The notes under the pieces: model-generated
The model's database searches: none
What the model saw: only the letters and a program-made list of their open reading frames with translations
What the model was told of the DNA's origin: nothing
Shown: piece after piece, positions 2,276-18,922 of the stretch
Layout: each line of letters starts with the position of its first letter
Numbering within the stretch: position 1 is the first letter of the stretch
Made by a program: the position numbers and the translations under genes
Virus record (IMG/VR): IMGVR_UViG_3300032073_000259
Coordinates: 1 to 23,378 of that record
Reading direction: 5' to 3' (one strand)
DNA from: a virus
Length of the DNA: 23,378 nucleotides

Positions 2276-2285
2276 CAAGAATTTA

Positions 2286-2293
2286 TTACACTT
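2286..2293 (-). promoter_or_regulatory. AAGTGTAA box upstream of the basic protein gene
   Basis: The minus strand reads AAGTGTAA ten bases before the ATG at 2275, preceded by an AT-rich AATAATTA segment. The same box occurs before nrdB and at 19250. In the 39-bp gap after nrdA it may mark an internal promoter or a translation-initiation element. The function is inferred only from recurrence. Confidence 0.35.
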
Positions 2294-2314
2294 TTAATTA
2301 TTAAAAATGAATAT

Positions 2315-3961: not shown

Positions 3962-4932
3962 TAAAAGAGGTCGTCAGCGTCAAATGTTTGAGAGTTTTTA
4001 GAATACTCAACTGGTCGTGAGTGAAAGAAATCCGTAGCATTATTGCCCATCAATTCTTCTTCGAACCACATTGTATCTTCCAATAACGAAGTGTCAACAT
4101 CAAACGCTGAATGAAAGCCTATTTTTTCCAAAGAGTCATTAATTCTATTTTTTATAAACTCCTTGAGAATGTTAGCATCCAACCCTTTTTCATTAAATCC
4201 ATTAATCATCCAATCGACAATTTGGCTCTCTGCCACAAAAGCCGCTTTAGCTTCGCTCGCTATTCTCTCTTCCAACTCTTCATCAAAAAGCTCGGGATGT
4301 TCGCTGCGAATCGTGTTTATGATTTTGATGCCAGCCAAAGCATGAATGTTTTCTTCATTGCGAGTATATTTGACTTGCTGTCCCGTATCTTTAAGAACAT
4401 TCCGATAGCGATTAAACCAGTTAATAATATAAAACTGCGAAAAGAGAGAAACATTCTCCACAAAAAGCGTGAAAAGAATGATGGAATAAACATATTGTTT
4501 TTTTGAGTCTTTGTAAAATTTATGATTGTATTTGCGGAGATACTTCACTCGACCTTCGATGAAATCTAATTTCAAGTTTTCTTCGAAAACATCCTCTAAT
4601 CCCAACACCTTAAGAAGTCTTTCGTAAGCGTTGTTGTGGATAACCTCTACGTTAGCCATAACATATCCAAGATCAGTCAAGCTCGGATGGGGAAGGTTAT
4701 CTCCAAGCTTGCTCCAAAATTTCTTAACTGCGACCTCAATCTGACCGATTGCAGAAAGAGTTCTTACTATCATCTCCTTCTCTTTTTCATCTAAATTGAC
4801 GTTAAAATCTTGAATATCGCTGCTAAAACTAAATTCTTTATCGGTCCAAAAACCGTTATGCATTGCCTCAATAAACTCCTGCGCCCAAGGGTAATGGTCG
4901 GGCTTCCTCGATACTTGTTCTTCGAAAATCAT
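3961..4932 (-). CDS. nrdB: Class I ribonucleotide reductase, small (beta) subunit
   Basis: A 323-aa ferritin-like subunit that generates the radical used by NrdA. Metal-ligand and radical positions are readable: Glu66 (in QIEVAVKKFW, where E. coli has Asp84), Glu96 and His99 (VEVIHNNAY), the radical Tyr103 (E. coli Y122 position), Glu159 (FVENVSLF), and Glu194 and His197 (EENIH). The C-terminal tail ends DADDLF, the type of peptide that docks into the large subunit. Retention of the Tyr supports a tyrosyl-radical cofactor rather than the Tyr-less Ic type. It is the first gene of the leftward operon and overlaps nrdA by one base. No Shine-Dalgarno is seen before ATG 4932; an AAGTGTAA box lies 12 bases upstream. 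Confidence 0.97.
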   Translation of the reverse strand: MIFEEQVSRKPDHYPWAQEFIEAMHNGFWTDKEFSFSSDIQDFNVNLDEKEKEMIVRTLSAIGQIEVAVKKFWSKLGDNLPHPSLTDLGYVMANVEVIHNNAYERLLKVLGLEDVFEENLKLDFIEGRVKYLRKYNHKFYKDSKKQYVYSIILFTLFVENVSLFSQFYIINWFNRYRNVLKDTGQQVKYTRNEENIHALAGIKIINTIRSEHPELFDEELEERIASEAKAAFVAESQIVDWMINGFNEKGLDANILKEFIKNRINDSLEKIGFHSAFDVDTSLLEDTMWFEEELMGNNATDFFHSRPVEYSKNSQTFDADDLF

Positions 4933-4944
4933 GGTTAAAGGATT

Positions 4945-4976
4945 TTACACTTAGCAGGGACACGAAGCAATGTCAA
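4945..4976 (-). promoter_or_regulatory. Possible nrdB promoter region with AAGTGTAA box
   Basis: On the minus strand a TTGACA (4976-4971) is followed after 17 bases by TGC-TAAGTG, a poor -10 with a TGn extension. The AAGTGTAA box (4952-4945) overlaps that position and ends 12 bases before the nrdB ATG. The -35 match is perfect and the -10 match weak, so either host polymerase with an activator or a phage-directed holoenzyme could be used. Speculative. Confidence 0.35.
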
Positions 4977-5003
4977 ATGAGAATTTTAAGAAATTTTTTT
5001 TTG

Positions 5004-5031
5004 TTGACAAACTAATCCCTAGACATATAAT
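5004..5031 (+). promoter_or_regulatory. Consensus sigma70 promoter for the sigma-factor operon
   Basis: TTGACA at 5004-5009 and TATAAT at 5026-5031, 16 bases apart, match the sigma70 consensus at all 12 positions. Transcription would begin near 5037-5039 and run into the sigma-factor, SSB, glycosyltransferase and Hsp20 genes, leaving a leader of about 145 bases before the ATG at 5183. This is the best candidate for an early, host-polymerase promoter in the window. Confidence 0.82.
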
Positions 5032-5033
5032 AA

Positions 5034-5108
5034 CCGTGAAACGGGATAAACGTAATTTATACCTATTACGGTATAGATAAAGTATAACGTAATACTTAAT
5101 CGTATACG
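5034..5108 (+). promoter_or_regulatory. Dyad-rich leader/operator region
   Basis: Immediately downstream of the -10 lie several dyads: CCGT-GAA-ACGG (5034-5044, at the predicted transcription start); CGTAAT (5051-5056) with ATTACG (5065-5070); an overlapping TATACC (5058-5063) with GGTATA (5070-5075); another direct CGTAAT (5088-5093); and the palindrome CGTATACG (5101-5108). Overlapping half-sites of this kind suit a repressor operator or alternative leader RNA folds. No regulator is identified in the window. Confidence 0.5.
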
Positions 5109-5110
5109 TT

Positions 5111-5131
5111 TTATAAATATATTATAAATAT
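5111..5131 (+). promoter_or_regulatory. Tandem TATAAATA boxes (T4-late-type motif)
   Basis: The 10-mer TTATAAATAT occurs twice, at 5111-5120 and 5122-5131, giving two TATAAATA octamers (5112-5119 and 5123-5130) exactly 11 bp apart. TATAAATA is the T4 late-promoter sequence read by the phage sigma gp55. It lies just upstream of a gene that itself encodes a sigma-like protein. In AT-rich DNA the octamer can occur by chance, so a promoter role is inference. Confidence 0.45.
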
Positions 5132-5182
5132 AATCAGAAGTTTTTGTAAAATTCTGTGGAAAAAGGAAGACAAGATAGTAAA

Positions 5183-5767
5183 ATGGGTTCAGTGGAAAGC
5201 GATCTGACACTCATATCCAAAATACAGGAGGATAATACCGACCAAAAAAGCCTTATAGCTTTAGTTGATCGGCACTCTGGGATATTTCACACGATGGTAA
5301 ATCATTTTATGTCAAGCCCTCACTGCGTCTTAGACAAGACTCAAATCGTTGAGGATAAAGAAATCACAATTTATGATTCAGCTTTAAATTACGATCCATC
5401 TAGAAATACAAAATTTTCTACTCATTTAGCTAACCAAACTAAATGGAAGTGTTTAAACGCTCTTAACAAAAAGAAGAAAAATAAAGAGTATTTTATCGAC
5501 GATGAAAATACTTATATTGAACCAAGTTGTGATTCTTTTATCCATGACATCAACAAAGAAGAAGCTTTAGTTGTGTTTAATGAATGCCTTAAAACAGAAA
5601 AGGACGAAAGGGTTAAAAAAATAATTGACATGCGTTACGGATCGGATAACAATAAACTCACTCCTTGGAGATATATTGCGAATAATCTTGACTTAAGCAT
5701 ACAAGGGTGTATAAATATCCACAACAAATTTATTAACAAAGTAAAAAAAGAAGCAAATTATGTATAA
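5183..5767 (+). CDS. Phage-encoded sigma70-family factor
   Basis: A 194-aa protein from ATG 5183, with AAGGAAG 13 bases upstream; a GTG at 5156 would add nine residues and has no Shine-Dalgarno. Residues 1-40 (SDLTLISKIQ, LIALVDRHSG) look like sigma region 1.2/2.1. Residues 64-100 contain YDSALNYDPSRNTKFSTHLA and a basic stretch after NALNKKKKN, like core-binding and -10-binding regions 2.2-2.4. Residues 142-190 contain ERVKKIIDMRYG, then IANNLDLS and IHNKF, a region 4-type helix-turn-helix. It should bind host RNA polymerase core and redirect it to phage promoters. It is the first gene of its operon, behind a consensus host promoter and two TATAAATA boxes, and overlaps the SSB gene by 8 bases. 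The sigma-family call is strong; equivalence to T4 gp55 is not shown. Confidence 0.85.
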   Translation: MGSVESDLTLISKIQEDNTDQKSLIALVDRHSGIFHTMVNHFMSSPHCVLDKTQIVEDKEITIYDSALNYDPSRNTKFSTHLANQTKWKCLNALNKKKKNKEYFIDDENTYIEPSCDSFIHDINKEEALVVFNECLKTEKDERVKKIIDMRYGSDNNKLTPWRYIANNLDLSIQGCINIHNKFINKVKKEANYV

Positions 5768-6131
5768 TTCTATTACAGCCGCAGCATATCTGGTTAAAGA
5801 CCCAGAAGTAAGAACTACCAGCAATGGTAAAAAAGTTGTCAGCTTGAGAGCTGGCGTTTCAACATCAAACGCAAAAACTAAATGTTTTGTTGACATCGAA
5901 TATTGGGATAAGACGGCAGAAATTGCTGAAAAATATCTTTCGAAAGGAAGAGAATTTATTGTCAATGGAGAACTTTGTATGTCGTCTTGGGAAAAAGAGG
6001 GTAAAAAGTTCAGCAAATATTTCATTAGAGGTAAAGACCTTCAGTTCTTGAGTTCTAAAAAGGCTGATAAAACCGAAGGGGATGGAGGCAACAGCTCAAG
6101 TGACGTACAAGGCGATGATGTCCCGTTTTAA
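5760..6131 (+). CDS. ssb: Single-stranded DNA-binding protein
   Basis: A 123-aa bacterial-type SSB. Residues 3-97 form the OB-fold pattern: LVKDPEVR at 11-18 after the first strand, VVSLRAGVS, FVDIEYWDKTAEIAEKYL (43-60), the KGREFIVNGEL strand and a final strand ending DLQFL. A short flexible Ser/Gly linker leads to the acidic tip GDDVPF, close to the bacterial DDDIPF tail that recruits host replication and repair proteins. It would coat single-stranded DNA during phage replication. It is shorter than E. coli SSB (178 aa) because the linker is brief. The ATG overlaps the end of the sigma gene by 8 bases, and the next gene begins directly after its stop. Confidence 0.95.
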   Translation: MYNSITAAAYLVKDPEVRTTSNGKKVVSLRAGVSTSNAKTKCFVDIEYWDKTAEIAEKYLSKGREFIVNGELCMSSWEKEGKKFSKYFIRGKDLQFLSSKKADKTEGDGGNSSSDVQGDDVPF

Positions 6132-7214
6132 ATGAAATTAATTCTAGAAGCTCCTTTAAATGGCTTAAGCTTTGGTAATGTTTCTTTTAACATTGTCAGA
6201 GAACTTCAAAGGCTAAACGTAGATCTGGGCATCTTTCCAACAGGTGACCCAGATCTATCTGCATTTGATTTAACCGATGATCTTAAAAAGTATATTGAGG
6301 ACTCTGTAAATAATAGGTGGAAGTTGCTTAGTAAGCATATCCCCACTTTGAAACTATGGCATTTAAATGGATCTGAAAATAGAAAGACTAAAGATCAACA
6401 TTTGCTTTCATTTTATGAATGCAGCGAGCCGACAGAATTAGAGCTTAAAATAGCATCTCTGCAAGATAATGTTATTTTTTCTTCTAAATATGCCCAAAAA
6501 CTCTTTAAAGATAAAGGGTTAGCTAACACAGAATTTGTACCTCTTGGGTTTGACGAAGATTTTAAAAGAACCGAAAAAAAATATCTTAAAGATGTTGTTC
6601 ATTTCGGTTTAATGGGTAAATACGAGAACAGAAAGCACACTAAAAAGATTATTCAAACTTGGTTAAAAAAGTATGGTAATAATCCTAAATACCAACTTTC
6701 TTGTTGTGTAAGTAATCCATTTTTTAACCCTCAACAAATGCAGGGGGTGTGGAATGAAGTAACTAAAGGAGAAAATTATAATAATTTAAATATAATTCCT
6801 CGACTCGCTAAGAATTCAGAAGTCAACGAATTTTTAAATGCAATAGATATTGATTTAACAGGACTTTCGGGAGGAGAAGGTTGGAATCTACCAGCTTTTA
6901 ATTCTACTTGTTTAGGAAAGTGGAGTGTGGTTTTGAATGAAACCTCTCATAGAGATTGGGCAACCAAAGATAATTCTATTATGATTGAGTCTTCTGGAAA
7001 TATGCCCTGCGAAGATGGTATATTTTTTACAAATCAAAAGGATTTTAATAATGGCGTTTTCTACACATGGACGGAAGATCAAGCGATTGCCGCTATGGAA
7101 AAAGCCGAATCTAAAGCGGGACAGATTAACACAGAGGGTGTCAAAATGGGGGACACTATGACTTACAAGAAAACTACTGAAGCTATTTTATCCCTTGTTT
7201 TTAAGGAAAAATAG
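6132..7214 (+). CDS. Glycosyltransferase-like protein (GT-B type)
   Basis: A 360-aa protein with the layout of GT4-type glycosyltransferases. The C-terminal half starts with a typical Rossmann strand and basic stretch (VVHFGLMGKYENRKHTK, 155-171). The SGGEGWNLPAFNSTCLGKW segment (246-264), with Glu249, matches the donor-binding EGW..P..E/N region. The N-terminal half is less typical. A cytoplasmic sugar transferase is the likely role; donor and acceptor are unknown. Its ATG abuts the SSB stop with no Shine-Dalgarno, so translation probably depends on coupling. Because it sits with SSB and the sigma factor, modification of DNA or an early protein is worth considering, but nothing in the sequence decides this. 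It is not close to the two leftward glycosyltransferases in position. Confidence 0.72.
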   Translation: MKLILEAPLNGLSFGNVSFNIVRELQRLNVDLGIFPTGDPDLSAFDLTDDLKKYIEDSVNNRWKLLSKHIPTLKLWHLNGSENRKTKDQHLLSFYECSEPTELELKIASLQDNVIFSSKYAQKLFKDKGLANTEFVPLGFDEDFKRTEKKYLKDVVHFGLMGKYENRKHTKKIIQTWLKKYGNNPKYQLSCCVSNPFFNPQQMQGVWNEVTKGENYNNLNIIPRLAKNSEVNEFLNAIDIDLTGLSGGEGWNLPAFNSTCLGKWSVVLNETSHRDWATKDNSIMIESSGNMPCEDGIFFTNQKDFNNGVFYTWTEDQAIAAMEKAESKAGQINTEGVKMGDTMTYKKTTEAILSLVFKEK

Positions 7215-7245
7215 ATTGGCATGATTAATGTTAATATATATAACT

Positions 7246-7578
7246 ATGAACTCATTAATTAACAACTTATTAAACGATATTACTAACCAACAAAATAAAC
7301 CTATCTCTTTTAACAGGCATCCAGTTAAGGATTCTGGAGATGTTTATCAAGCTGAATTTGAATTAGCTGGATTTACTAAAAAAGATGTAGATATTAAAGT
7401 TAGTGATAGCATTCTAACAATTCAAGCTGAAAATGAACAGAGAAATAAGTCATTTAAATTATTTTTATATGATTTAGTTTCAGAAGATCACATCACAGCT
7501 TCTTTAAAGAACGGCCTTTTAAATATTACTCTTCCCAAAAAAGAGGTGACCGCTACAAAAAAAATAGATATTAAATAA
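7246..7578 (+). CDS. Small heat-shock protein (Hsp20/alpha-crystallin)
   Basis: A 110-aa alpha-crystallin-domain chaperone. I prefer ATG 7246 because MNSLINNLLND resembles phage Hsp20 N-termini; ATG 7228 would add six hydrophobic residues. Typical features: YQAEFELAGFTKKDVDIKV (34-52, the v..elPGf.k.di.v pattern), SILTIQAE (55-62), GLLNITLPK (90-98, close to the consensus GvLtItlPK), and a C-terminal KKIDIK whose I-x-I can bind a neighbouring dimer groove. These proteins hold unfolding proteins in oligomers without ATP. Hsp20 is known in T4-like cyanophages, where it is linked to scaffolding or stress. It lies between the glycosyltransferase and a small FmdB-like gene, with a TAATG junction to the latter. 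Confidence 0.92.
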   Translation: MNSLINNLLNDITNQQNKPISFNRHPVKDSGDVYQAEFELAGFTKKDVDIKVSDSILTIQAENEQRNKSFKLFLYDLVSEDHITASLKNGLLNITLPKKEVTATKKIDIK

Positions 7579-7964
7579 TGCCTATTTATGTTTATAAACA
7601 TCCCGAAAGAGAAGAATACCGAGAGGTGTTCCAAGGGATGAATGATGAACATGTTTATTCAGAAGATGACGTTGAGTGGAGCAGGGTTTTCCTTGCTCCC
7701 AACGCATCTATTGACAACACTATCGATCCATTTAATAAACAACAATACATAGACGCTACTTACAATAAAAAAGGAACTATTGGAGACATGATGGATTTGT
7801 CTTCAGAGCTAAGTGCAAAAAGAGCTGAAAAATCTGGCGGCCTAGATCCAGTTAAAGAGAAGTTTTACAACGACTACTCCAAAGAGCGCAATGGGGCAGA
7901 ACACCCAAACAGATTAAAAGAAAAAGGTTACGATAGCAAAAACGTAAAAATAGATTACGATTAG
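7578..7964 (+). CDS. Small FmdB-like protein lacking zinc cysteines
   Basis: A 128-aa hydrophilic protein. The first 20 residues, MPIYVYKHPEREEYREVFQG, follow the FmdB-type zinc-ribbon opening (MPIYEYxCxxCG..fe..q.m), but the protein contains no cysteine, so no zinc ribbon can form. The remainder is unlike FmdB: VEWSRVFLAPNASIDNTIDP (32-51) and a charged C-terminus (GLDPVKEKFYNDYSKERNG). I recall similar proteins in marine T4-like phages, function unknown. Its start overlaps the Hsp20 stop (TAATG). Its TAG stop overlaps the stop of the convergent tail gene in the tetranucleotide TTAG. A regulatory role would be a guess. Confidence 0.7.
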   Translation: MPIYVYKHPEREEYREVFQGMNDEHVYSEDDVEWSRVFLAPNASIDNTIDPFNKQQYIDATYNKKGTIGDMMDLSSELSAKRAEKSGGLDPVKEKFYNDYSKERNGAEHPNRLKEKGYDSKNVKIDYD

Positions 7965-9058
7965 TAATAAGTTCCGCTAACCTTTAAACCTTTGTTTTGT
8001 GTCACTTTGAAACTAAACTGTGCATCATAACTCATAGTCCCATTGACGCTCATTGAATAATTGTAAGAATTAAGTTTAGCGTCCTCTATTCGGTAAATCA
8101 TTTGCTTGCCGCTGGCTTCTAGTTTTAAATCAAATTGATAGTTTTCATCAGAATTTAAAACTCCAGTCATATTACCCACATCCACTCCTGAAACCAAAGA
8201 GGATACAGAAAATGAACCATCCGCTGGGAATTGCCTCTTTCTATTAAACGGGTAATCATTTCCCAAACCATAAGAAGAAGCTCTGCCAACAGTGACACTC
8301 ATATCAACTGATTGAACTAAATGTTTTCCAGATATTGGCTGTCCACCAACTTGCAAATTCTGCAAAACAATATCGCTGTTAGTGTTATCTGGATTAACTA
8401 TAGGGGGTTTTTTATCTAAATCAGAGCTTGATAAATCTAGAGCAAAATTGAAAAGACAATTTCCAACGCCATTGTTATTACCACCAGTTAAGTTCACAGC
8501 TGGCATTTGCATTGATGTTGTACTTAAGCTGGCGAACACAGCGTTTGAACCAATATAAGATGTTGAAACAATAGGAAGATTACCTATTGAATAACTTAAA
8601 GAATAAGAAGAAGGAAAACAATTTCCAAAAGCTATAGCTTGATCTTTATTCAAATTTAAAGCTGATCCATACGACAGCTTATTTAAAAAAGAATTCTCTC
8701 CTTTTTCATTTATTAAAACATAAAAATTTGTAGAATCGTTAACATCGCTAGAAGTAAAAAAATTTTCAAAATCTGTGTTAGGTCTTGTGTCAATAAACCT
8801 ACCTTGCAGCTCATTAGAAAAATTAGGTTCTGGAATGTATGTAATGTTTAAGCCTACATCTGGAACTTGATAAAAGTCATTAGAGGCTAAATCTTGAGAA
8901 CCTACCTGCTTTAAAGCTTGTCTGGGATAATTAATAGAATAATTTAAACCTTGAGTTATTTTATGTAACTTAAGCCCTTGATTAGCTGTGGAAAAAGCCA
9001 CGGTCGCATCTTGAGCTGCCACTATAGCATTATAACTTTTTATTATATTTCTAGCCAT
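7961..9058 (-). CDS. Tail-tube-like structural protein, paralogue A
   Basis: A 365-aa beta-rich protein without signal peptide or membrane segment, last gene of the leftward tail operon. It shares a scaffold with the 404-aa protein at 21216: NYSINYPRQ (39-47) against NYSFTINRQ; FGNCFPSSYSLSYSIGNLPI (144-163) against IGNCYVSDYSVDLSVGSLPT; and the second-domain segment LGNDYPFNRKRQFP (265-278) against LGSRFPFAREVDFP. The shared plan suggests two tube-like beta domains. Located downstream of the tape measure, it is more likely a distal-tail or minor tail component than the main tube. A good AGGAAC Shine-Dalgarno sits before ATG 9058, in the end of the preceding gene, one base after its stop. Exact role unknown. 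Confidence 0.78.
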   Translation of the reverse strand: MARNIIKSYNAIVAAQDATVAFSTANQGLKLHKITQGLNYSINYPRQALKQVGSQDLASNDFYQVPDVGLNITYIPEPNFSNELQGRFIDTRPNTDFENFFTSSDVNDSTNFYVLINEKGENSFLNKLSYGSALNLNKDQAIAFGNCFPSSYSLSYSIGNLPIVSTSYIGSNAVFASLSTTSMQMPAVNLTGGNNNGVGNCLFNFALDLSSSDLDKKPPIVNPDNTNSDIVLQNLQVGGQPISGKHLVQSVDMSVTVGRASSYGLGNDYPFNRKRQFPADGSFSVSSLVSGVDVGNMTGVLNSDENYQFDLKLEASGKQMIYRIEDAKLNSYNYSMSVNGTMSYDAQFSFKVTQNKGLKVSGTYY

Positions 9059-9059
9059 T

Positions 9060-10016
9060 TTATGTTCCTGTTGGAATTACACCTAAAGGGTCTTCTACTA
9101 AATTTACAGTCAATGTATTAGAATTAACATAATCCCAAGTGTGAGTCCAAGTCGGACTGTAATAAACTTTTGGTCTATTATAAACAGATGGTATTTGATG
9201 CTCAAATCTTCTGTAACCTCCTTTGTTTTCTAAAAAGTGAATCATGCTTTTGGTCTGGGAGTCAGAAATATTACTAAAAGTATAATTAATACCAAAAGTA
9301 GAAATATTATCATTTGTTTTTAACCTTTGAGTAAAAGAATTTTTATAATTAAGTATGTCCGCTTTAATATCTACATTGGTTTGAGTTCCGATGTCAGGCT
9401 CAAAAAAGAATTTTTGGCTCCACATAGAAGAAGCTCCAACTGGACTATTAGATGCTGTAGAAGTATGGTCTCCACTACAATAGTAAAAGTTATCTAATTT
9501 ATTTTCATTTATCCCTGAATAAACAACATCATATTTTTTATAAGCTCTGCTCGGACTCCACCCATCAAAATTTAAATTAGCAAAGCACCCCATTCCCGAC
9601 CATTTTAAAAGAGTGGGGGCATGATCTACATTTATAGTAGATGCGACTTCGAAGTGTTGATTGTTAATAAAATTGACAGCATAGTTATCACAAAAACCTG
9701 TCACGGTTTTATATATATTGGAAGAGTCTGGAGTAAATTCTATGCTTTCCACCCCTGATTGGGCTTCAAAAAATGCAACTAACTTTTGAGCATTGGCTTC
9801 ATTTACGTCATACCTTACATTAAATTTAGCCGTTAAACTATTTACAGAATAAGGTATTAAATTGTAATAAAAATCATCAGTAGTATAGCTGTGATTAGTC
9901 GCCTTAAAATTAACTTGCGACCCATAAACGGGAGCGAGACTCAAACCAGCGATGGTAGAAGGGATCGCTACTCCCGAAATATTATCATCTCTGTTATAAA
10001 ATAAACTTTCGCTCAT
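9060..10016 (-). CDS. Minor tail protein (lambda gpM-like) with CBM5/12-like insertion
   Basis: A 318-aa protein with three parts. Residues about 30-140 and 213-312 look like two copies of the same beta domain; each has a stretch resembling the Phage_min_tail (lambda gpM) family: a helix (AQKLVAFFEAQSG, 76-88; TKSMIHFLENKGGYRRF, 255-271) followed by a strand and an ending of the type LTVNLVED. Between them, residues 153-203 match the CBM5/12 carbohydrate-binding pattern: W153, AYKKYDVVYSG, FYYC, HTS (184-186), P192 and W199. The protein probably sits near the tail tip, where the inserted module could contact a surface glycan. It overlaps the upstream gene by ATGA and is followed after one base by the next tail gene. 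The minor-tail call is supported by motif and position; the sugar is unknown. Confidence 0.78.
   Translation of the reverse strand: MSESLFYNRDDNISGVAIPSTIAGLSLAPVYGSQVNFKATNHSYTTDDFYYNLIPYSVNSLTAKFNVRYDVNEANAQKLVAFFEAQSGVESIEFTPDSSNIYKTVTGFCDNYAVNFINNQHFEVASTINVDHAPTLLKWSGMGCFANLNFDGWSPSRAYKKYDVVYSGINENKLDNFYYCSGDHTSTASNSPVGASSMWSQKFFFEPDIGTQTNVDIKADILNYKNSFTQRLKTNDNISTFGINYTFSNISDSQTKSMIHFLENKGGYRRFEHQIPSVYNRPKVYYSPTWTHTWDYVNSNTLTVNLVEDPLGVIPTGT
9408..9560 (-). other. CBM5/12-like carbohydrate-binding segment
   Basis: Codons 153-203 of the minor tail protein carry the spacing W..S.AY...D.VY.G, then FYYC, HTS, P and W that marks small chitin/glycan-binding modules often fused to phage tail proteins. 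The aromatic residues W153, Y159, Y178, Y179 and W199 could form the stacking surface. Identified by pattern only. Confidence 0.6.
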
Positions 10017-10825
10017 GAGTGACCCATATAATTAAGAGTTAAACGGACTGCCCCATCCGAGCTTGCGGTTAATTGTTCTGAAACTAATGAGGCTTTTGGT
10101 ATGGTAAGATTTTGAAGAGTTGTTCCGTCTCTGCCTTTGACTGAAAAAGATAGTGTCTTATCTTCTCGATCTGCATCTAGAAAACTAAACCCGCTTTTTA
10201 AAAAAACATCATCAACATCTATTTGTACGCTGGCTGAATATTGTATAGGGTTAATATGCTTAACCTCAACAGGCGTTTCAGATCCAATGGTGTAGTAAGG
10301 TTGTTTATTTACAGTTAGTGAATAATCAAAACCAACGACTCTATTAGTAGAGCTATTGTCACAAGTGGCCGTTATAGATCCTTGACTTGGTATAAATATA
10401 TTAGTTGAGGTAGAACCTGAAGCGCTAATTCCGCTTTTCATTTCGTCATAAACAATAAAGCTAGCATTAACTCTAGGAACAGAACCAACAGCACAGTTTA
10501 CTGAATATGAATTTAAATAACCACTTTCAAAACCATAAGAAGCATTATTATTATAATTAAAACTTCCTTTCATTACCTCTGATTCTCCAGTAAAATCTAA
10601 AACTGGATCAACATATATAAGAGATCTAGAAAAAGACACCTTTTGATCAGTGACTCCTCCTACTGCTGTAAGTCCATGACTCGAACCTAAAGGAGCTAAA
10701 AGATCAGCCTTGTTATCATATCCTAGATCAAGGCTTTCTATACCAGAAAGTTCTCTAGCAGCAGGGCTGCCATCTCGCCCAGATATAAAAAAGTGAGCTT
10801 CGTAATTTAGCGTTGTGTCATACAT
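10013..10825 (-). CDS. Tail-tube-like structural protein, paralogue B
   Basis: A 270-aa beta-rich protein directly after the tape measure gene (TAATG junction) and overlapping the minor tail gene (ATGA). Its central segment GYLNSYSVNCAVGSVPRVN (102-120) aligns with NCYVSDYSVDLSVGSLPTVN of the 404-aa probable tube protein and with NCFPSSYSLSYSIGNLPIVS of the 365-aa protein. The N-terminal IESLDLGYDNKADLLAPLGS and the C-terminal VKGRDGTTLQNL fit two tandem tube-type domains in a shorter version. The place after the tape measure is where siphophages encode distal tail proteins, many of which share the tube fold. Expected to be a virion protein near the tail tip; no enzyme motif is seen. Confidence 0.75.
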   Translation of the reverse strand: MYDTTLNYEAHFFISGRDGSPAARELSGIESLDLGYDNKADLLAPLGSSHGLTAVGGVTDQKVSFSRSLIYVDPVLDFTGESEVMKGSFNYNNNASYGFESGYLNSYSVNCAVGSVPRVNASFIVYDEMKSGISASGSTSTNIFIPSQGSITATCDNSSTNRVVGFDYSLTVNKQPYYTIGSETPVEVKHINPIQYSASVQIDVDDVFLKSGFSFLDADREDKTLSFSVKGRDGTTLQNLTIPKASLVSEQLTASSDGAVRLTLNYMGHS

Positions 10826-13800
10826 TATGCTCTAGCCTGTCTTAAAGATCCTCCCAGTCTCTTTTCGTCATCAATAACCTGCTTAACAACGTCTCTTATT
10901 CGTGTCGCTAAATTGGTTTCTTCTTCATCTCCATCACCATTCGTGCTAGATGTTCCATCGGAGTTAACTGTAATATTTATATTTGTTTCTCCTTGATTAT
11001 CGGAAACAGAAATTAATTCATCTAATTTACCAATAACCGCTCCATTGCCTCCTGAACTCCCTCCCGAATTTATAGAAGCTAAATTACCCTTACCAATTCT
11101 TTGAGTAGCTGCGGCATTCATTACAAATTCGCCGCCTGACAACATTGCAGGAACAGTGTCTACTCCCGCTGCGTAAGGAATAGGTCCACCCGTGGCAGAC
11201 TTTTTGCCTTCGCTAAATAAATTACTTAAAGCAAAGCCAGCCCCAGCCGCGACAATAGACCCAAGCAACCCTCTAGTGGATTGCTTTTCTTGCTCCTTTG
11301 CTTGTTTTTCTTTATTGACTTGTTGCATATACAATCCAAAAGCGCTTTGTTTGGATGATTGCTCTCTGCCAAATTGTGGACTGTTTCTACGGCCAAACAT
11401 TGTAAGAGCAGCGCTTTGAGGGGCTAAACCTATAGAAGCAAATCCAGAGCCGCCACTAATAGAATCAAATCCTCCAGTTGTGAATCCTTGGGTAGCGAAG
11501 TCTAACAAGCTATCTTTGCCTCGCATTGCTCCTTGTCCATAAGTTCCTGGGGTAAATAAGCCTCCTCTATTCATCGCAGGGATCTGCCCTGAATTCAAAG
11601 CAGACATAAATCTTGATCCATACTTTTTAACCGCACCTCTCCTCATCACAAATTCACCTCCAGTCAAAAGAGCTGGAATATCATCTCTAGTTCCAGATCC
11701 ACCTTTTACTGGACCTCCACTATTTAAAGGGTTTAAACCTCCCATAATAGAGCCAAAAATTCCACCGCCACCGCCACCAATAATACTATTGACAGCTTGG
11801 TTCATGTATCCTTTGGCCAAAATATTGAAGAACGATGCAGCAGCATTTCTTAACGTCGAACCTAAATCTTCTCCTTTAGATATAGCATCAACTAAAGCAT
11901 CGGATATGTTGTTTTTGAAATTTATAGAGGCATCAGTTATGGTTTGAGCTAAACGATCAGATTGAAGTAAAGGGTCAAACTCTCCAGACTCGACTATTCT
12001 TTGCCCCACACTTCTTTGTAAATCACTTAGTCTAGCTGCATTTTCTGGTGTCAGATCACGGCGATCTGAAATAGCTCCCAACCTTCTTCTGTTAGCAGCC
12101 GACTCTGAACCCAAACCCATTCTGTCAGATTGTAATAATTGCAGCTCTGCATTAGCAACAGCTTGTTGAAATTCATTTAATGCTCTTGCTGCTTGTTCTG
12201 CCGCATCAGCAGTTGCTTGCGCTGCTTCTATATCTTTAACAGAAGCTAATTCTAAATCAGCTATTGTTTGCTTAAGATTTCTAGCTGCAACTGGAGATTC
12301 TTTAGCTATTTCTTTAAGAGCGTTTAAAGCCTCCGCTGGTGTTGTGGCTTGGTCTAAAGAAAAACGATTCCTAGACATCTTCCGCATGGCTGACATAGGA
12401 TCAAGTATGTTTGCCGCTGTAAAAGTGGGCTGTTGATTAAGTCCAGCTTGTCTAATTCTATCCATCAATCCCGCTCTCGCTGTTGACACCGCTCTGCCTC
12501 CAATTCGGGATTCAACCCCTTTTATTTGATCTTGTAAACGAGATCTAACTTCAGGCGGTGCTGTAGCCATTTGCTGGTTTAGAGAAGTTATAAGAGATCG
12601 GTCTGCTTCGTTGTCTCTTTGGTTTTGTTGGGTGACATCAAAAGCTCTATTTGTAGAATCTATCGAGGCGCTAGTTTGAGCGTCCTTTAACTTTAACTTG
12701 AGAAGTTCTGCTTTATTATTCATGTTTGATAAAGACCTCTCTCCATCATTCATTGTCATAATCAAACCTGCTGCGGCATTATTAGCCAACATAAAGTTTT
12801 CTACAAGTTTATCAACTTCGACATTTTCTTTGCCAGTTATACCTAAAATATCCTCCATGAGTCCCTTGACGATATCTTTATCTTTAGCATCTTTTTCTGA
12901 CAATTCTGATATTTCTTTAGTTATATCGTCTATTTCTTTTTGATTTACCTTTAACTCTTCTAGCTTTCCAAGGCTTTCTCCAAGAACTTCTAATCTTTTT
13001 GCGACAATTTTATTTGATAACTCCTCCTCTAATCTTTGAGTTTTTAATTTAATTAAGTGCTCATCACTTAAGTTTCCTAAAATTTCAGCAGACTTAATTC
13101 TTCCGTTGAGTTCAGTATTTAAAGCAAGTTCTGCTTTTCTTTGATCGAGAGCGCTTTTGATTGATATTTTGGCTTTTTCTAAATCTAAAAGTTTTGATCT
13201 TTTCTGTAAATCCTCTGTGTTCTGAAGTCTTTTAGCAAATTCCGCTTCTAAAAGAATTAGTTTTTGTTTTTCTGGAACTTTGCTGCCGACTTTCTTTTCT
13301 AAAAATTCGTCAGATATTCCAAAGCGAAATACATCCATCGCCCCTTGTTTTCCACCTACACCACGGGGAACATCTCCTGTTTTTAGTGCTCTTATTATAT
13401 CCTCGATTTGTTTTGTGGTGGCACCTTCTATGCCTTTTGCAAATTCTTTTGTGTCTGCTACTACTTCTTTGTTAGTGCTTGCAATAAAATCTGCAAATTC
13501 TGCTAATTGTTTTTCTCCTAGTCTAACTCCAAATCCAAATGAATCTAATTTTGCGTCTACTTCTTCCGCAGTTAAACCTAAACCTAAAAGGCTAGCAGCC
13601 GCTTTTTGGAAAGCCTCTTGGAAAGTTTGTCCTGAAGCATCTTTACCTCTTGCAAATCTCCTGTTTACCTCCACATTAGTGAGTGGTGAATTGTCAATAG
13701 CTGTCTGGTTTACACCCATCGCTCCATTAGTTAATATACTCGGCACCCGCGCCGTTACAGTTCCTATTCCTCCTCCTAAATCCAAACCTTTTCCAGTTAC

Positions 13801-16800
13801 TATGCTTTTAGCCTCTTCTCTTAATCTTACTTTTCTAACTTCAGAAAGGTTGTCGAAACTAAAAGCTAAATTTTTCGTAGCGTCAGCAAGAATAGCCATA
13901 GAACTAGCCGCAGCTCTATTTTTCCCAGTTGCTTCATCTATTATAGCGTTTATGCCTTTAAACAAAGATATCCCTGCGCTTAACGCGGCCCCATATAACC
14001 CTAATTTACTAACAATCTTTCCAGAAGCCCCACCAAGAGATTTACCAAAATCATTTATAGCACTACCAGCGAAAGCCGCAGTTGTCATGCTACTCATGGC
14101 CTTGAATGTTATATTAGCGAACTTTTTCAATCCATCTTCAGCTCCAGAAGTAGCTCCACTTAATCCAGAAAGACCAATTTGCACCGCGAAGATGCCTCCG
14201 AGCATATCTCTTTGGCCTTTATTGTTTTTGTTAAGTTGATTAGTAGAATCTTTAAGAGATTTATTAAAAGCTTGAACTCCTGCTTTATCGTATTTAAAAC
14301 CTGCTCCTGTGACCTGTTGTTTTGTTACTCCCTTGTTCCATGCAGCAAAGTTTGGTATCGCTCCAGTAGGCTCATCTCTTGTGTTAGTCACAGCAAGACC
14401 CATTGGGTTGCCAGCATTCTTTAATGAAGAATCTTGGTTAATTCTTATCTGATTGAGTGGAAGACCTGCGGCAGATTCTCTAGCTATTGCATTTTGTAAA
14501 CCTCCAGCAAAATTTGGAATATAACCAGATGCTCCTGTGTTACGGAACTTAATCCCGCCTAGCTTTTGCGAAACCTCATCTAGCCCCCTTTTATATTGTG
14601 TCACCCCTTTCTCTTTATATGCCCCCCTTAATTCTTGCCCTCCAGATCTTGTTAAAGTTTCTGTCCCCGTGGTGAATCTAGACATTTTGTCAGCCATGCT
14701 GTTTCTAATGTCTGCATCGTTGTCCCTGATTTTAGCCTCCACAAAGGCTAAGTCAGCAAAGTTTTTCATAGCTGGAGATATTGTGCTAATCTTTTTTATA
14801 GTGTTAATACCTAAAAAGTCAAAACTAGCAGTTTGCCCTAAATCAAATTCTGGACTTTTTACTATTCCACTAATAGCTGTTTCGAAAATAGATCCAGCTA
14901 AACTTCCTATACCTCCTTGGTTGCCTAATTTATCTTGCTTTTTTCTTAAAGGGTCACCTCCAGTGATCTCCAGTGCTTCGTTATTTGCTTTATTTATAGC
15001 GTATCTTCTAATATCGCCTTTTAATTCTTCAGTTTCTTTGGCTTTTGCACCCCGAGGCTCGATTCCAAAAATATTAAATTGATATTTTCGTTTATTTTTA
15101 GCTGTTCCTATACCTTTTCTTACCCCACCAAATTTTTGAGGGATTATCATCGCAAACCTATTGTCTATAATAGGTTTTCCTTTTGCCCCTTTAGTGCCTG
15201 TAGAGAATAAAGGTGCTGGTTTAGGTTTATTATAATTAGGGATAAAACCCCCAGCCGCACCCACCTTTCTGGCTCCAGAAGGAAGACCTAGAGAGGAAAT
15301 CATATCCTGATTAAAGATGGCTGAACCTCCACTGCCCGCGAAATTAGGAACCATGTATTCGCTGGTGTTGGCCACCATTGTCCCTTTTTTACCTCCACCA
15401 AAATTAAAGTTAGGTATGGAAACAGGTCTTGCTGAACTTGGCGCTCCTCCAACCCCACGATTTATATCACCTTGTTCAGACCCATAACCCATTACTGCAT
15501 TGTAATTAGGAACAAAGCCGCCAGCAGCCCTTCCCCTTCCAGCTCCCCTTGTCCCAGCAAAAACTCCAGGGGTTACTCTTAACGCAATACCTTGCATTTT
15601 TTGCATAACCGCCAACTGCTCATTAAGAGCAGTGGTAAAGAACTTCGTTTGAGCGGCCTTCTTTTGCTCTGTACTTAGTTGGGAATTTTCAATAGCTAAA
15701 ATTTGTTTTTGAATTCCCTCGTTACCCAAAAGAGTTGAAGCTATTTGCCCCTGTAAAGTCGCTTGTTCTTTGGCTGCTCTATTAAGACCAAAAAAGGTTT
15801 TTAAAGACCCAAAACCAAACTTGGTTAAGTCTAGAGTTAGTTTGGCGATAATAGCTCCAAAAATAGCTAACCCAGGTCCGCTAATTATACCTCCTATTGC
15901 TTTTACAAAGCCTTTAGCAAAATCGCTTCCTATGCCATCTCCATCTAATAAATTTTTTACATCACCAACTAAACTGTTAAAAAACCCAAGAACATTTTTG
16001 AGACTGTCTGTAATCCCAATTTTTCCAAGAGTGTCCGCTAATTCTTTTAAGTTAACTGTAGCGGAATTAATCGCAGCAGATAGAGTCTGGTTCAAAGCTA
16101 TATTACGACCGTAAGCTTCAGTAGTTGCCTTGGATGCGACATCTGTGACTTTAATAGCTGTAGAAGTCTCTTTATTGTAATCTTCTAGAATAGCCAAAAA
16201 AGGAGCGATTTGGAATTTGCCAACTAAATTTTCTGCAATTTGCAGTCTTCTAGCATCAGGCAAACCTTTTAAAGTGTCCCCTAAATTTTGAATCAACTTT
16301 GTAGCGCTTAAAACCTCTCCTGATGTATCAGTTACTTGGACACCAAGATTTTGCATAGTCTTAAGTTTATCAAGACTTTGAATACGAGTAAAAATTGTTT
16401 TAAAAGAGTTACCAATAACAGCTCCTCCTCGGGCTGTTCTTGCTTGAACCGCAGTGATAACACCAATTAACTCATCGAAAGATACTCCCGCTTGGATAGC
16501 AACAGAACCAGAACGCTTAATACCTTCGATAAGATCTCTTTCAGAAACAGCAGCAGAGACCGCAGCGGCAGATAATTTATTAAGCACTTCTGCACTCGTA
16601 ATTCCTGTAGCGTTAAAAGAGTTAATGGCTGCTGTTAAACCAGCTACAGCTTCAGCAGCGCCCAATCCAGATAAACGACTTAATACAAGAGCGTCATTTA
16701 ATCTTTTAGTTACTTCTTCTGCCTTTAAACCTTGACGACTTAATTCTAAAGCTGCGTTCGCAACGGTATCGAATGACTGTTCAGTATTCCGAGCTACGTC

Positions 16801-17157
16801 AAAAATTGTATTTTTAAATTTTTCTAACTGTTTGGCATTCGCCCCAAGAATGGAATTAATACTAGCGAGAGATTTTTCTACCTCGATAGTGGTCGAAACG
16901 AGATTTGCGAAACCTCTTTGTACAGCGGAAAGAACTCCGACAGAAGCTCCAAATGCCAACACACGAGCGTTAGCGGCTTCCATTGATTTTGTAAACTGAT
17001 CTGCCTTACCAGTAATTCTGCCCAAAGGTTGAGATAAACCTTCAATGCTTTTAGCACTACTTCCTAGATTAATCTTAAGGCTCTTGCCCGCTTTTTTAGC
17101 CGCAGCTTCGATGCTTGCTTCTAATCCTGTTTGTATAACTGGTACTTTTAATGGCAT
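10825..17157 (-). CDS. Tape measure protein (TP901-type) with embedded nuclease-like domain
   Basis: A 2110-aa protein, the largest in the window, that sets tail length and is likely expelled at infection. Residues 60-380 are TP901-type: ARVLAFGASVGVLSAVQ, then repeated Ala-rich helices. Residues 420-445 are hydrophobic (IIAKLTLDL), a candidate membrane segment. Residues 547-939 hold six PN-type repeats (GFVPNYN 547, IPNFN 581, VPNFA 603, GFIPNYN 637, GYIPNFA 878, AIPNFA 933) with a PD-(D/E)XK-like domain at about 745-830. Residues 1080-1800 are mostly charged coiled coil. The C-terminus has two copies of D-x-[IV]-P-A-[LM]-L-x-GGEFVM (near 1826 and 1995). At about 1.5 angstrom per residue it would predict a tail near 300 nm, though inserted domains make that an upper estimate. 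Two GTGTAA boxes precede the gene; the stop overlaps the next ATG. Confidence 0.95.
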   Translation of the reverse strand: MPLKVPVIQTGLEASIEAAAKKAGKSLKINLGSSAKSIEGLSQPLGRITGKADQFTKSMEAANARVLAFGASVGVLSAVQRGFANLVSTTIEVEKSLASINSILGANAKQLEKFKNTIFDVARNTEQSFDTVANAALELSRQGLKAEEVTKRLNDALVLSRLSGLGAAEAVAGLTAAINSFNATGITSAEVLNKLSAAAVSAAVSERDLIEGIKRSGSVAIQAGVSFDELIGVITAVQARTARGGAVIGNSFKTIFTRIQSLDKLKTMQNLGVQVTDTSGEVLSATKLIQNLGDTLKGLPDARRLQIAENLVGKFQIAPFLAILEDYNKETSTAIKVTDVASKATTEAYGRNIALNQTLSAAINSATVNLKELADTLGKIGITDSLKNVLGFFNSLVGDVKNLLDGDGIGSDFAKGFVKAIGGIISGPGLAIFGAIIAKLTLDLTKFGFGSLKTFFGLNRAAKEQATLQGQIASTLLGNEGIQKQILAIENSQLSTEQKKAAQTKFFTTALNEQLAVMQKMQGIALRVTPGVFAGTRGAGRGRAAGGFVPNYNAVMGYGSEQGDINRGVGGAPSSARPVSIPNFNFGGGKKGTMVANTSEYMVPNFAGSGGSAIFNQDMISSLGLPSGARKVGAAGGFIPNYNKPKPAPLFSTGTKGAKGKPIIDNRFAMIIPQKFGGVRKGIGTAKNKRKYQFNIFGIEPRGAKAKETEELKGDIRRYAINKANNEALEITGGDPLRKKQDKLGNQGGIGSLAGSIFETAISGIVKSPEFDLGQTASFDFLGINTIKKISTISPAMKNFADLAFVEAKIRDNDADIRNSMADKMSRFTTGTETLTRSGGQELRGAYKEKGVTQYKRGLDEVSQKLGGIKFRNTGASGYIPNFAGGLQNAIARESAAGLPLNQIRINQDSSLKNAGNPMGLAVTNTRDEPTGAIPNFAAWNKGVTKQQVTGAGFKYDKAGVQAFNKSLKDSTNQLNKNNKGQRDMLGGIFAVQIGLSGLSGATSGAEDGLKKFANITFKAMSSMTTAAFAGSAINDFGKSLGGASGKIVSKLGLYGAALSAGISLFKGINAIIDEATGKNRAAASSMAILADATKNLAFSFDNLSEVRKVRLREEAKSIVTGKGLDLGGGIGTVTARVPSILTNGAMGVNQTAIDNSPLTNVEVNRRFARGKDASGQTFQEAFQKAAASLLGLGLTAEEVDAKLDSFGFGVRLGEKQLAEFADFIASTNKEVVADTKEFAKGIEGATTKQIEDIIRALKTGDVPRGVGGKQGAMDVFRFGISDEFLEKKVGSKVPEKQKLILLEAEFAKRLQNTEDLQKRSKLLDLEKAKISIKSALDQRKAELALNTELNGRIKSAEILGNLSDEHLIKLKTQRLEEELSNKIVAKRLEVLGESLGKLEELKVNQKEIDDITKEISELSEKDAKDKDIVKGLMEDILGITGKENVEVDKLVENFMLANNAAAGLIMTMNDGERSLSNMNNKAELLKLKLKDAQTSASIDSTNRAFDVTQQNQRDNEADRSLITSLNQQMATAPPEVRSRLQDQIKGVESRIGGRAVSTARAGLMDRIRQAGLNQQPTFTAANILDPMSAMRKMSRNRFSLDQATTPAEALNALKEIAKESPVAARNLKQTIADLELASVKDIEAAQATADAAEQAARALNEFQQAVANAELQLLQSDRMGLGSESAANRRRLGAISDRRDLTPENAARLSDLQRSVGQRIVESGEFDPLLQSDRLAQTITDASINFKNNISDALVDAISKGEDLGSTLRNAAASFFNILAKGYMNQAVNSIIGGGGGGIFGSIMGGLNPLNSGGPVKGGSGTRDDIPALLTGGEFVMRRGAVKKYGSRFMSALNSGQIPAMNRGGLFTPGTYGQGAMRGKDSLLDFATQGFTTGGFDSISGGSGFASIGLAPQSAALTMFGRRNSPQFGREQSSKQSAFGLYMQQVNKEKQAKEQEKQSTRGLLGSIVAAGAGFALSNLFSEGKKSATGGPIPYAAGVDTVPAMLSGGEFVMNAAATQRIGKGNLASINSGGSSGGNGAVIGKLDELISVSDNQGETNINITVNSDGTSSTNGDGDEEETNLATRIRDVVKQVIDDEKRLGGSLRQARA
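14341..15519 (-). repeat. PN[FY][AN] protein repeats in the tape measure
   Basis: Six copies of a short motif G-x-[VI]-P-N-[FY]-[AN] or close variants occur at residues 547, 581, 602, 637, 878 and 933, separated by Gly-rich linkers and one larger domain. The linker after the fifth copy (RESAAGLP, then NPMGLAVTNTRDEPTG) has the look of a longer unit often tandemly repeated in tape measures of environmental phages. Only one full unit is present. Confidence 0.75.
14668..14925 (-). other. PD-(D/E)XK nuclease-like segment inside the tape measure
   Basis: Residues 745-830 read as a compact domain: an opening helix GSLAGSIFETAIS with Glu759, a strand SFDFLGI with Asp780, then NFADLAFVEAKI with Asp802 and Glu807-Ala-Lys809, followed by a polar helix SMADKMSRF. 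The order Glu, Asp, ExK is the catalytic layout of PD-(D/E)XK nucleases. Fold and activity are inferred from pattern alone. Confidence 0.55.
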
Positions 17158-17180: not shown

Positions 17181-17200
17181 TTACACAAAGATTTACACAT
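17181..17200 (-). promoter_or_regulatory. Paired GTGTAA boxes before the tape measure gene
   Basis: The minus strand has GTGTAA twice: once containing the stop codon of the preceding gene (ATGTGTAAATC) and again 9 bases later as TTGTGTAATTAC, 23 bases before the ATG at 17157. They resemble the AAGTGTAA boxes at other operon heads. This gap has the only sizeable space inside the tail operon and may hold a secondary promoter. Confidence 0.3.
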
Positions 17201-18170
17201 CATGCCCAGCTAATCGCATCATTTGTTCCATGTTTAAGGTGCCGCCATGCTTTTTAGCTTCTTCTGACAACGAAACCCCTCCTGTCGTACCGCCTAAATC
17301 TTCAACATCTTCATCGGTAGCTCCAAAGATCGCTGAACCAGCAGCATCATCTTTAATTGCAGATGTATTTTTATTCCTTTGATTTTCTGAATAAGCTAAT
17401 AATTTTTCAGGATCTTCTTTAATGTGCTCGGGAATATTTTCTGTGTGTTGAAATATGTTAAAAAACATTCTTCCATACAATACCACCCTTAACTGATGCA
17501 CAGTTAATTCTGTGACAGGCTTACCATAAAAACCATTAACATTCTCACAAAGAGACAAATACATGCTAAAAAAAGGTCTCAAAACCGCTTCTTGGATAAT
17601 TGAGTCAGTCATCCTGTTTTGAATTTTTTGATGAATTTTAGTCAAACCAACGACCTGCCAAGTTTCCAGCTCTCCAAATTCTTCTTCTGAATATAAATGT
17701 TCTGTCAGTTCTTTATTTTTAAACAATAAAAATCTTAATATCTCATCCGCACTGCGGCCTTCCGCATAGTCGTCTGCTGTTTGGCCCACTACCTCTTTTC
17801 TTCTTTGCTGTAGCGAAGCTATTTTTTCTCTGTTTTTTGTTATTTGCTCATTAATAGCATCTCTTTCAGACTTTAAGAAAACAGCCCTAACTGTTCTTTT
17901 GAGATTTTCTGTTTCTAAATTTAAAGTATTTATTTCTAAATCGTCTTCTTCTCGCCAAATGCCTTCTTTTACAACATACTTTAACTTTTCTTTTTCAGTT
18001 TGAAGACCTCTGGATAAAGCTAACTGCTTATATTTTTCATGGTATTTATGTAAATACCTTTGGTCTCTGATACTTATATGCTTTACATATACAGGTCGGT
18101 CTTCAAAAACAACTTCTGTATAGCCATCAAAAGCCTCGCCAATTAAAGAGATGTAGAACTCTTCTTTCAA
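17193..18170 (-). CDS. Probable tail-assembly chaperone, second gene (TTG start)
   Basis: A 325-aa hydrophilic protein directly before the tape measure, the usual place of tail-assembly chaperones. The frame has no ATG near its beginning; TTG at 18170 is preceded by AAGGTG at Shine-Dalgarno distance and overlaps the stop of the gene before it (TTGA), so TTG initiation with coupling is the best reading. Residues 72-135 are charged coiled coil. It shares a plan with the 251-aa neighbour: a G-[IV]-W-x-E-[ED]-D motif (70-76 here, 90-96 there), then a Lys/Glu-rich coil, then an Asp/Ala/Leu turn leading to LLF or LLLW. It ends in a Gly/acidic tail. The chaperone role rests on position only; a virion component is also possible. 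Confidence 0.7.
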   Translation of the reverse strand: MKEEFYISLIGEAFDGYTEVVFEDRPVYVKHISIRDQRYLHKYHEKYKQLALSRGLQTEKEKLKYVVKEGIWREEDDLEINTLNLETENLKRTVRAVFLKSERDAINEQITKNREKIASLQQRRKEVVGQTADDYAEGRSADEILRFLLFKNKELTEHLYSEEEFGELETWQVVGLTKIHQKIQNRMTDSIIQEAVLRPFFSMYLSLCENVNGFYGKPVTELTVHQLRVVLYGRMFFNIFQHTENIPEHIKEDPEKLLAYSENQRNKNTSAIKDDAAGSAIFGATDEDVEDLGGTTGGVSLSEEAKKHGGTLNMEQMMRLAGHDV

Positions 18171-18922
18171 ACTTCACCTTTTTCGAGATCCTCGATGAGA
18201 GCATTGAACTCATCGGGACTGGAAGCTTGGTTAAAGAACCAAAAAGCTAAAATAGTAGTGACCTTCTTTACTAAAGCTTCATAAAGATCTGTGCTATTAT
18301 CTTCTTTGTTATAGTAGTCTTCTACTTTTTGTTCGAAATCGCTTCCTTCAAAATAAGGAATTGGGTTTTCGTCTTCTTCTCTTTGTATATGAGTGAGCAT
18401 CAGAGTATACCACAATAAAAGTTTGTTTTGAGCTTTTGTGTCAGCAGTGTGATCAAACAATGACTGCATAGATGTTTCAGCATCTACAATTTGCCTTTTA
18501 GTTATAGCCAACTTCTCTTTTAAAGACTCAAGCTTTTCTTTTTGCTTTTTAGTCTTTTTTTCTACACTCTCTAGGCGCACATATTCATTTTGAATATCAA
18601 AAATTTCTTTATACAGCTTCCCATAATCTTGCGCGTCATCTTCGCTCCAGACACCACCTGTGTCGCTATACTTTTTATAAAGCATGGCTTTAGTAAGGAT
18701 TCCCTTTTTTACACAACGACTCATTTCTACAGAGTATTCCAGCTCTGCTTCTTCTAAATCTCTACGAGACGGCCTTTTCAGCTTAATCTGCACGGGAGAC
18801 TTTTCTTTGACTTTTTTAGTCACGGTCTCCTCTTCGCCCGTCTTTTTGTTTTTGCGAGTGCTTGTTTTTTCTATTTCTCTTTCTTCGTCGAGAGTGAATG
18901 AATATAATTCTTTAAATGCCAT
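18167..18922 (-). CDS. Probable tail-assembly chaperone, first gene
   Basis: A 251-aa charged protein. Residues 20-45 are Lys/Glu-rich, residues 48-70 (LKRPSRRDLEEAELEYS) probably helical, 90-97 carry GVWSEDDA, 104-155 form a strong coiled coil (SVEKKTKKQKEKLESLKEK), and the C-terminus is hydrophobic to acidic (ILAFWFFNQASSPDEF). The overall plan is repeated in the 325-aa neighbour, so the two look like diverged duplicates. In many siphophages a G and G-T chaperone pair precedes the tape measure; here two separate overlapping genes occupy that place. It has an AAGGA Shine-Dalgarno before ATG 18922. No domain is recognised with certainty. Confidence 0.7.
   Translation of the reverse strand: MAFKELYSFTLDEEREIEKTSTRKNKKTGEEETVTKKVKEKSPVQIKLKRPSRRDLEEAELEYSVEMSRCVKKGILTKAMLYKKYSDTGGVWSEDDAQDYGKLYKEIFDIQNEYVRLESVEKKTKKQKEKLESLKEKLAITKRQIVDAETSMQSLFDHTADTKAQNKLLLWYTLMLTHIQREEDENPIPYFEGSDFEQKVEDYYNKEDNSTDLYEALVKKVTTILAFWFFNQASSPDEFNALIEDLEKGEV

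Follow-up and report, generated by a model that had tools for sequence, protein, structure and literature searches.

The polyvalent proteins of phages and conjugative elements are large, have been proposed to enter the host together with the DNA and carry several enzyme domains per chain (Iyer et al. 2017, PMC5512222). In the CIS effectors Sle1 (PMC13277306) and Tme (PMC11126660), which are related to tape measure proteins (TMPs), a TMP-like carrier is combined with an interchangeable functional domain. Enzyme modules within a TMP itself have been described as muralytic motifs in mycobacteriophage TM4 (PMC1796659) and in enterococcal phages (PMC10194240). Furthermore, the defence system SNIPE places a nuclease where TMP and DNA enter the cell (PMC13190303). 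Comparable features are seen in, or proposed for, the TMP cassettes described here.

We analyzed a stretch of viral DNA of 23,378 nucleotides (IMG/VR record IMGVR_UViG_3300032073_000259, here referred to as the window). In a preliminary description, made from the sequence alone, a PD-(D/E)XK nuclease-like domain had been proposed within its TMP. Comparison with related TMPs suggests that phages of a large uncultivated water group may deliver an enzyme to the host when their DNA is injected.

The TMP gene and its repeats

The carrier of the block is a TMP, as a PhageMin_Tail/TMP profile was found in a very long tail gene. In total, six [IVM]PN[FY] repeats were present in the window TMP, starting at residues 549, 581, 603, 639, 880 and 934. 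The features of the gene are as follows (window coordinates).

10825..17157, minus strand: tail tape measure protein (TMP) gene, 2110 aa (open frame, PhageMin_Tail and several TMP PHROGs)
16219..16800, minus strand: PhageMin_Tail domain, TMP residues 120-313 (Pfam PF10145, E=1e-27)
15502..15513, minus strand: repeat 1, VPNY (GGFVPNYN), residue 549 (sequence)
15406..15417, minus strand: repeat 2, IPNF, residue 581 (sequence)
15340..15351, minus strand: repeat 3, VPNF, residue 603 (sequence)
15232..15243, minus strand: repeat 4, IPNY (GGFIPNYN), residue 639, left border of the cassette (sequence; identity between relatives collapses here)
14527..15228, minus strand: exchangeable cassette, residues 644-877, with PD-(D/E)XK-like active-site signature (88-member superfamily; AF2)
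14893..14895, minus strand: G755, invariant in 88/88 (alignment)
14881..14883, minus strand: E759 (E 83, D 4, Q 1 of 88), predicted helix (alignment and AF2)
14818..14820, minus strand: D780, invariant in 88/88, short predicted strand (alignment and AF2)
14737..14739, minus strand: E807 (D 52, E 36 of 88), predicted strand (alignment and AF2)
14731..14733, minus strand: K809, invariant in 88/88, end of the predicted strand of E807 (alignment and AF2)
14686..14688, minus strand: K824 (K 74, Q 14 of 88), predicted helix (alignment and AF2)
14509..14520, minus strand: repeat 5, IPNF (SGYIPNFA), residue 880, right border of the cassette (sequence; the next 80 aa are 55-79% identical in most relatives)
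14368..14511, minus strand: conserved module after the cassette (AIARESAAGLPLNQIRINQ...NPMGLAVTNTRDEP), residues 883-930 (seen in related TMPs)
14347..14358, minus strand: repeat 6, IPNF, residue 934 (sequence)

The preliminary description had placed the domain at 14668-14925 (residues 745-830), and the minus strand at these positions does encode E759, D780, D802, E807 and K809. The block had also been taken for a cassette between PN[FY] repeats; it sits between repeats 4 and 5, and exchange was found at these borders. The proposed limits have to be widened: residues 745-830 lie inside a larger unit of about residues 644-877, which is bracketed by G[YF][IV]PN[FY] repeats. The module of residues 883-930 had no match among cultured phages.

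Beside the tail cluster the window carries genes for a glycosyltransferase (427-1275), SSB (5760-6131) and HSP20 (7228-7578), and class I ribonucleotide reductase genes, large (548 aa) and small subunit, are located at 2315-4932. Just upstream of the TMP gene two genes overlap (17193-18170 and 18167-18922), the second resembling the first by eye. A PHROGs search with both gave no match; their position is presumably the usual one of tail assembly chaperones.

Relatives of the TMP

With the N-terminal part of the TMP as query, 70 related stretches were obtained from IMG/VR and then at least 586, of which the 80 best were retained. Discarding near-copies left 93 TMPs, and 88 of these span the cassette region. 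A cassette belonging to a single superfamily was detected by BLAST in 87 of these 88 non-redundant TMPs. In the exception, L056, the corresponding site is filled by cassettes whose sequence, read by eye, shows PD-(D/E)XK-like residues. Empty-site alleles are nearly absent (87/88 occupied).

The window cassette alone, used as query, had no relative in viral contigs (peptide pattern), cultured phages or profile libraries, and a pattern scan of genome contigs yielded no relatives of the cassette. Cultured phages matched the N-terminal part of the TMP only, the best of them at about 25% identity, so that the search yielded no cultured relative for this group of TMPs. More divergent matches of the S2 type (L345-L361) occupy the corresponding position within long open frames, and all four of those checked are TMPs according to Pfam.

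Related TMPs with 45-77% identity were also present on MAG contigs (L166-L173). Their labels are Flavobacteriales, Flavobacteriaceae, Verrucomicrobiales, Neomarinimicrobiota, Halobacteriovorax and Proteobacteria, which gives a lead to the hosts that may include binning errors.

Conserved residues of the cassette

Within the 88-row alignment, which has a mean column identity of 14% across the superfamily, only G755, D780 and K809 are invariant (88/88 each). Position 759 is E or D in 87 of 88 members, and position 824 is K or Q in all of them. The comparison of related TMPs that had been proposed for D780, E807 and K809 thus found positions 780 and 809 invariant and position 807 always D or E (88/88). 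Free variation of these three residues is excluded, as the active site is retained throughout a family whose sequences otherwise diverge strongly. An independent alignment tool returned the same three invariant columns, with E759 nearly invariant. Of the residues originally assigned to the site, E759, D780, E807 and K809 are conserved across the 88 members; D802 is not among the conserved columns and was rejected as a site residue.

The pattern G-x-x-[FYL]-[ED]...D...[DE]-x-K...[KQ], which was composed after the alignment had been seen and is applied free of any alignment, was found in 85 of the 88 cassettes. In 200 shuffles it occurred in a mean of 0.42 and a maximum of 3 of 88, and among other TMP segments of equal length in 2 of 602. 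When sub-families were aligned separately and compared profile against profile, probabilities of 97.8% (F1-F3), 95.8% (F1-F6) and 87% (F1-F5) were obtained, with E, D and [DE]xK in register in the F1-F3 and F1-F6 alignments. The gap from D to [DE]xK varies from 19 to 37 residues across the cassettes and contains predicted helices.

Both the 88-member alignment and the alignment-free test therefore show the order E/D...D...[DE]-x-K by which PD-(D/E)XK members are recognized. That the conserved residues correspond to the PD-(D/E)XK active-site signature is strongly supported at the level of sequence.

Predicted fold and search for homologues

An AF2 model based on an 83-row alignment reached a pLDDT of 81.9 and a pTM of 0.76; on the single sequence the pLDDT was 43. 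The order of elements in the model is three N-terminal strands, a helix, the E759 helix, the short D780 strand, two short helices, the E807/K809 strand and the K824 helix. There is no strand between the E759 helix and the D780 strand, and an insertion of 22-27 residues separates D from [DE]xK.

Structure prediction had been suggested as a check of the fold. The confident model does place the site residues on helix, strand, strand and helix, but Foldseek found no match to the PD-(D/E)XK fold: against the PDB nothing of any fold was returned (best E 0.44), nor was anything from BFVD (best E 0.39). The profile search suggested as well did not connect the cassette to Pfam or other family libraries; Pfam, NCBIfam, PHROGs and PADLOC gave no match for 83 cassette members. 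PDB sequence and profile searches with the cassette returned nothing meaningful, and hhalign of the superfamily against YraN, Mrr_cat and RecB-type profiles scored no better than the NUDIX and response-regulator controls. Sequence or profile homology to PD-(D/E)XK members was thus not detectable in these searches.

The cassette resembles the PD-(D/E)XK superfamily (YraN, Mrr, RecB type) in E on a helix, D, [DE]xK on a strand, K/Q on a helix and a GxxFE helix start. It differs in having no fold, HMM or profile match, in the long insertion between D and [DE]xK and in being embedded in a TMP. Because an active-site match stands beside no fold or profile relative, we call the cassette PD-(D/E)XK-like without assigning it to the superfamily.

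Cassettes unrelated to the main superfamily but with a canonical-looking D...[DE]xK were seen as well (L046:11726-12430, L053:11729-12361, L091:4066-5184, L056:2469-3143 and L041:11729-12280). The first two of these form one cassette family (L046_637, L053_640), which matched YraN by profile with 52% probability (E=1.5e-4).

Exchange of cassettes between TMPs

In the nearest single-cassette relatives, identity is mostly 73-86% over the roughly 600 residues that precede the block, 17-48% within it and mostly 55-79% over the next 80 residues. Between the TMPs of the related stretches L154 and L155, identity is 98-100% for residues 1-632 and at this level again after the repeat GFIPNFADPL, whereas their cassettes share less than about 30% identity. 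On the DNA level an identity of 97% ends at position 10718, 2 nt before the cassette. Near-identical flanks, unrelated inserts and fixed borders identify the block as an exchangeable cassette.

On the N-terminal tree, in which some nodes are weak and long branches meet, the cassette sub-family changes at least 38 times (minimum 9, shuffled mean 58). Cassette and flank dS were 0.05 vs 0.75 for L030/L032 and 0.13 vs 1.18 for L135/L136. As cassette dS lies far from flank dS in several pairs, both parts have separate histories. The dN/dS values of the cassette (0.21-0.66) are under 1 and those of the flank are 0.04-0.17.

No co-varying immunity gene was seen in L154/L155, where about 8.8 kb upstream of the TMP are 97% identical despite the different cassettes; little was seen downstream. 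An intein was also considered and judged unlikely from reading the borders in the sequence, where the frame is continuous and neither a Cys nor a His-Asn border is seen.

Further modules in related TMPs

Longer TMPs carry two to seven cassettes each. Kinase-like cassettes are located at L041:13199-13780, L043:13226-13816, L046:13361-13936, L047:9510-10085 and L062:11829-12401. This family shares, in motifs read by eye, an invariant Lys (VKKF), Glu, D-x-H-G-x-N and D-x-G in kinase order, and no PDB sequence match was found for it. Walker A cassettes are present at L047:9024-9485 (GPAGSGKST), L049:12578-13039 and L151:11407-11877, with a Pfam AAA-type E of about 0.003, below the curated cut-off. 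GNAT-like cassettes were seen at L167:10735-11169 (Pfam E=0.0045, below cut-off; in a MAG labelled Neomarinimicrobiota) and L156:10762-11028 (no Pfam match). The open frame of the L091 TMP (2122-12612) exceeds 3497 residues and is divided by PN[FY] into many segments, among which is a cassette of the superfamily.

The C-terminal modules of L155 and L154 are swapped as well, a phage lysozyme (PF00959, E=1.4e-19) vs a GH19-type module (PF00182, E=7.4e-9). This is a second exchange site in the same gene. In both TMPs the nuclease-like cassette precedes these wall-acting modules, which lie towards the C-terminus, the end of the TMP at the tail tip.

Proposed function and alternative explanations

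We consider it probable that the block is an exchangeable, metal-dependent, nuclease-like (or related phosphodiesterase) effector, borne by the TMP and delivered at infection. Its predicted metal-binding site, of the PD-(D/E)XK type, would comprise E759, D780 and E807-x-K809 with the accessory K/Q824, and a nuclease or a closely related metal-dependent phosphodiesterase is the most likely activity. TMPs are packed in the tail, exit it with the DNA and reach the inner membrane, so that an internal domain would sit beside the entering DNA, near the cytoplasm. During injection the lambda TMP is labelled by TurboID fused to the inner-membrane protein ManZ (PMC13190303). The domain may cross the narrow tail lumen unfolded, as has been proposed for TMP-like CIS effectors (PMC13277306). 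It could thus arrive at the inner face of the cell envelope or in the cytoplasm and act on nucleic acid there; possible targets are the host chromosome, a resident plasmid or prophage and the DNA of a competing phage. Cassettes would be swapped by recombination at conserved sequence around the PN[FY]A repeats, whereby alleles turn over fast and the catalytic residues stay fixed. Such a combination suits an effector that acts against variable targets or is itself under inhibition.

It is rather unlikely that the cassette instead represents a new fold of metal-dependent enzyme, with an E-D-[DE]xK site acquired by convergence; such an enzyme could act on a nucleotide signal or some other phosphate compound and not on DNA. 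This would account for a confident model without a fold match, for the lack of a profile match to PD-(D/E)XK families and for the variable, helix-containing gap between D and [DE]xK, but five conserved residues, among them K/Q on the following helix, match PD-(D/E)XK nucleases in order, spacing and secondary structure. The PD-(D/E)XK fold is itself very variable in structure, which also weakens the argument for a new one. A structural or receptor-interacting TMP region without catalysis, varying under pressure from inner-membrane host factors or TMP-binding defences such as SNIPE, appears quite improbable: the invariant positions are limited to G, D, K and an acidic residue in catalytic order, and their presence in 87 of 88 TMPs would be unexpected for a purely structural part. 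In its favour, variation in the TMP determines how lambda-like phages use ManYZ and whether they are sensitive to SNIPE (PMC13190303), and dN/dS is higher in the cassette than in the flank.

The near-universal presence of the cassette would also fit a domain that processes the phage's own DNA in packaging, head-tail joining or entry, and it is general knowledge that the TMP adjoins the leading DNA end. Such housekeeping predicts conservation, yet the cassette is the fast-diverging, swapped part of the TMP, and we regard this explanation as highly improbable. The least probable is a selfish, homing-type nuclease that spreads itself between TMP genes. A nuclease-like site and rampant exchange at one locus would be expected of it; against it, the same TMPs also house or exchange P-loop, kinase-like and GNAT-like cassettes devoid of nuclease motifs as well as lysozyme/GH19 modules, the reading frame runs through without visible borders of an intein or intron, and almost every site is occupied (87/88).

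Extending the effector reading from the block to the whole group is more tentative, and we put it somewhat short of an even chance. The TMPs of a broad marine and freshwater group of uncultivated phages could be polymorphic effector carriers, in which a near-universal nuclease-like cassette of a new family and optional kinase-like, P-loop and acetyltransferase-like cassettes stand between PN[FY]A repeats, are delivered with the genome and are exchanged at the repeats. If true, the TMP would be ruler, channel and delivery vehicle for enzymes that act in the cell as infection begins and whose alleles are passed among phages. The named residues (E759, D780, E807 and K809) and the clean natural swap of L154/L155 make the delivery idea testable.

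Comparison with known systems

The interest of the cassette rests on its near-universal presence in a large uncultivated group, its exchange at sharp borders and its absence from current libraries, which miss some hundred unannotated domains of this family. No precedent for a nuclease inside a TMP was found in the largely open-access literature searched. The polyvalent proteins, in whose description tape measures are not mentioned (PMC5512222), differ in that here the carrier is a TMP and modules are exchanged at short repeats. Sle1 and Tme belong to bacterial CIS particles and bear a C-terminal domain, whereas the present cassettes are found in phages, in the middle of the protein and with conserved nuclease-like residues. 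The TMP modules of TM4 and of the enterococcal phages have cell-wall targets, in contrast to the nuclease-like site described here. Finally, SNIPE is encoded by the host and directed against phage DNA, while the nuclease-like domain of our study is part of the phage TMP itself.
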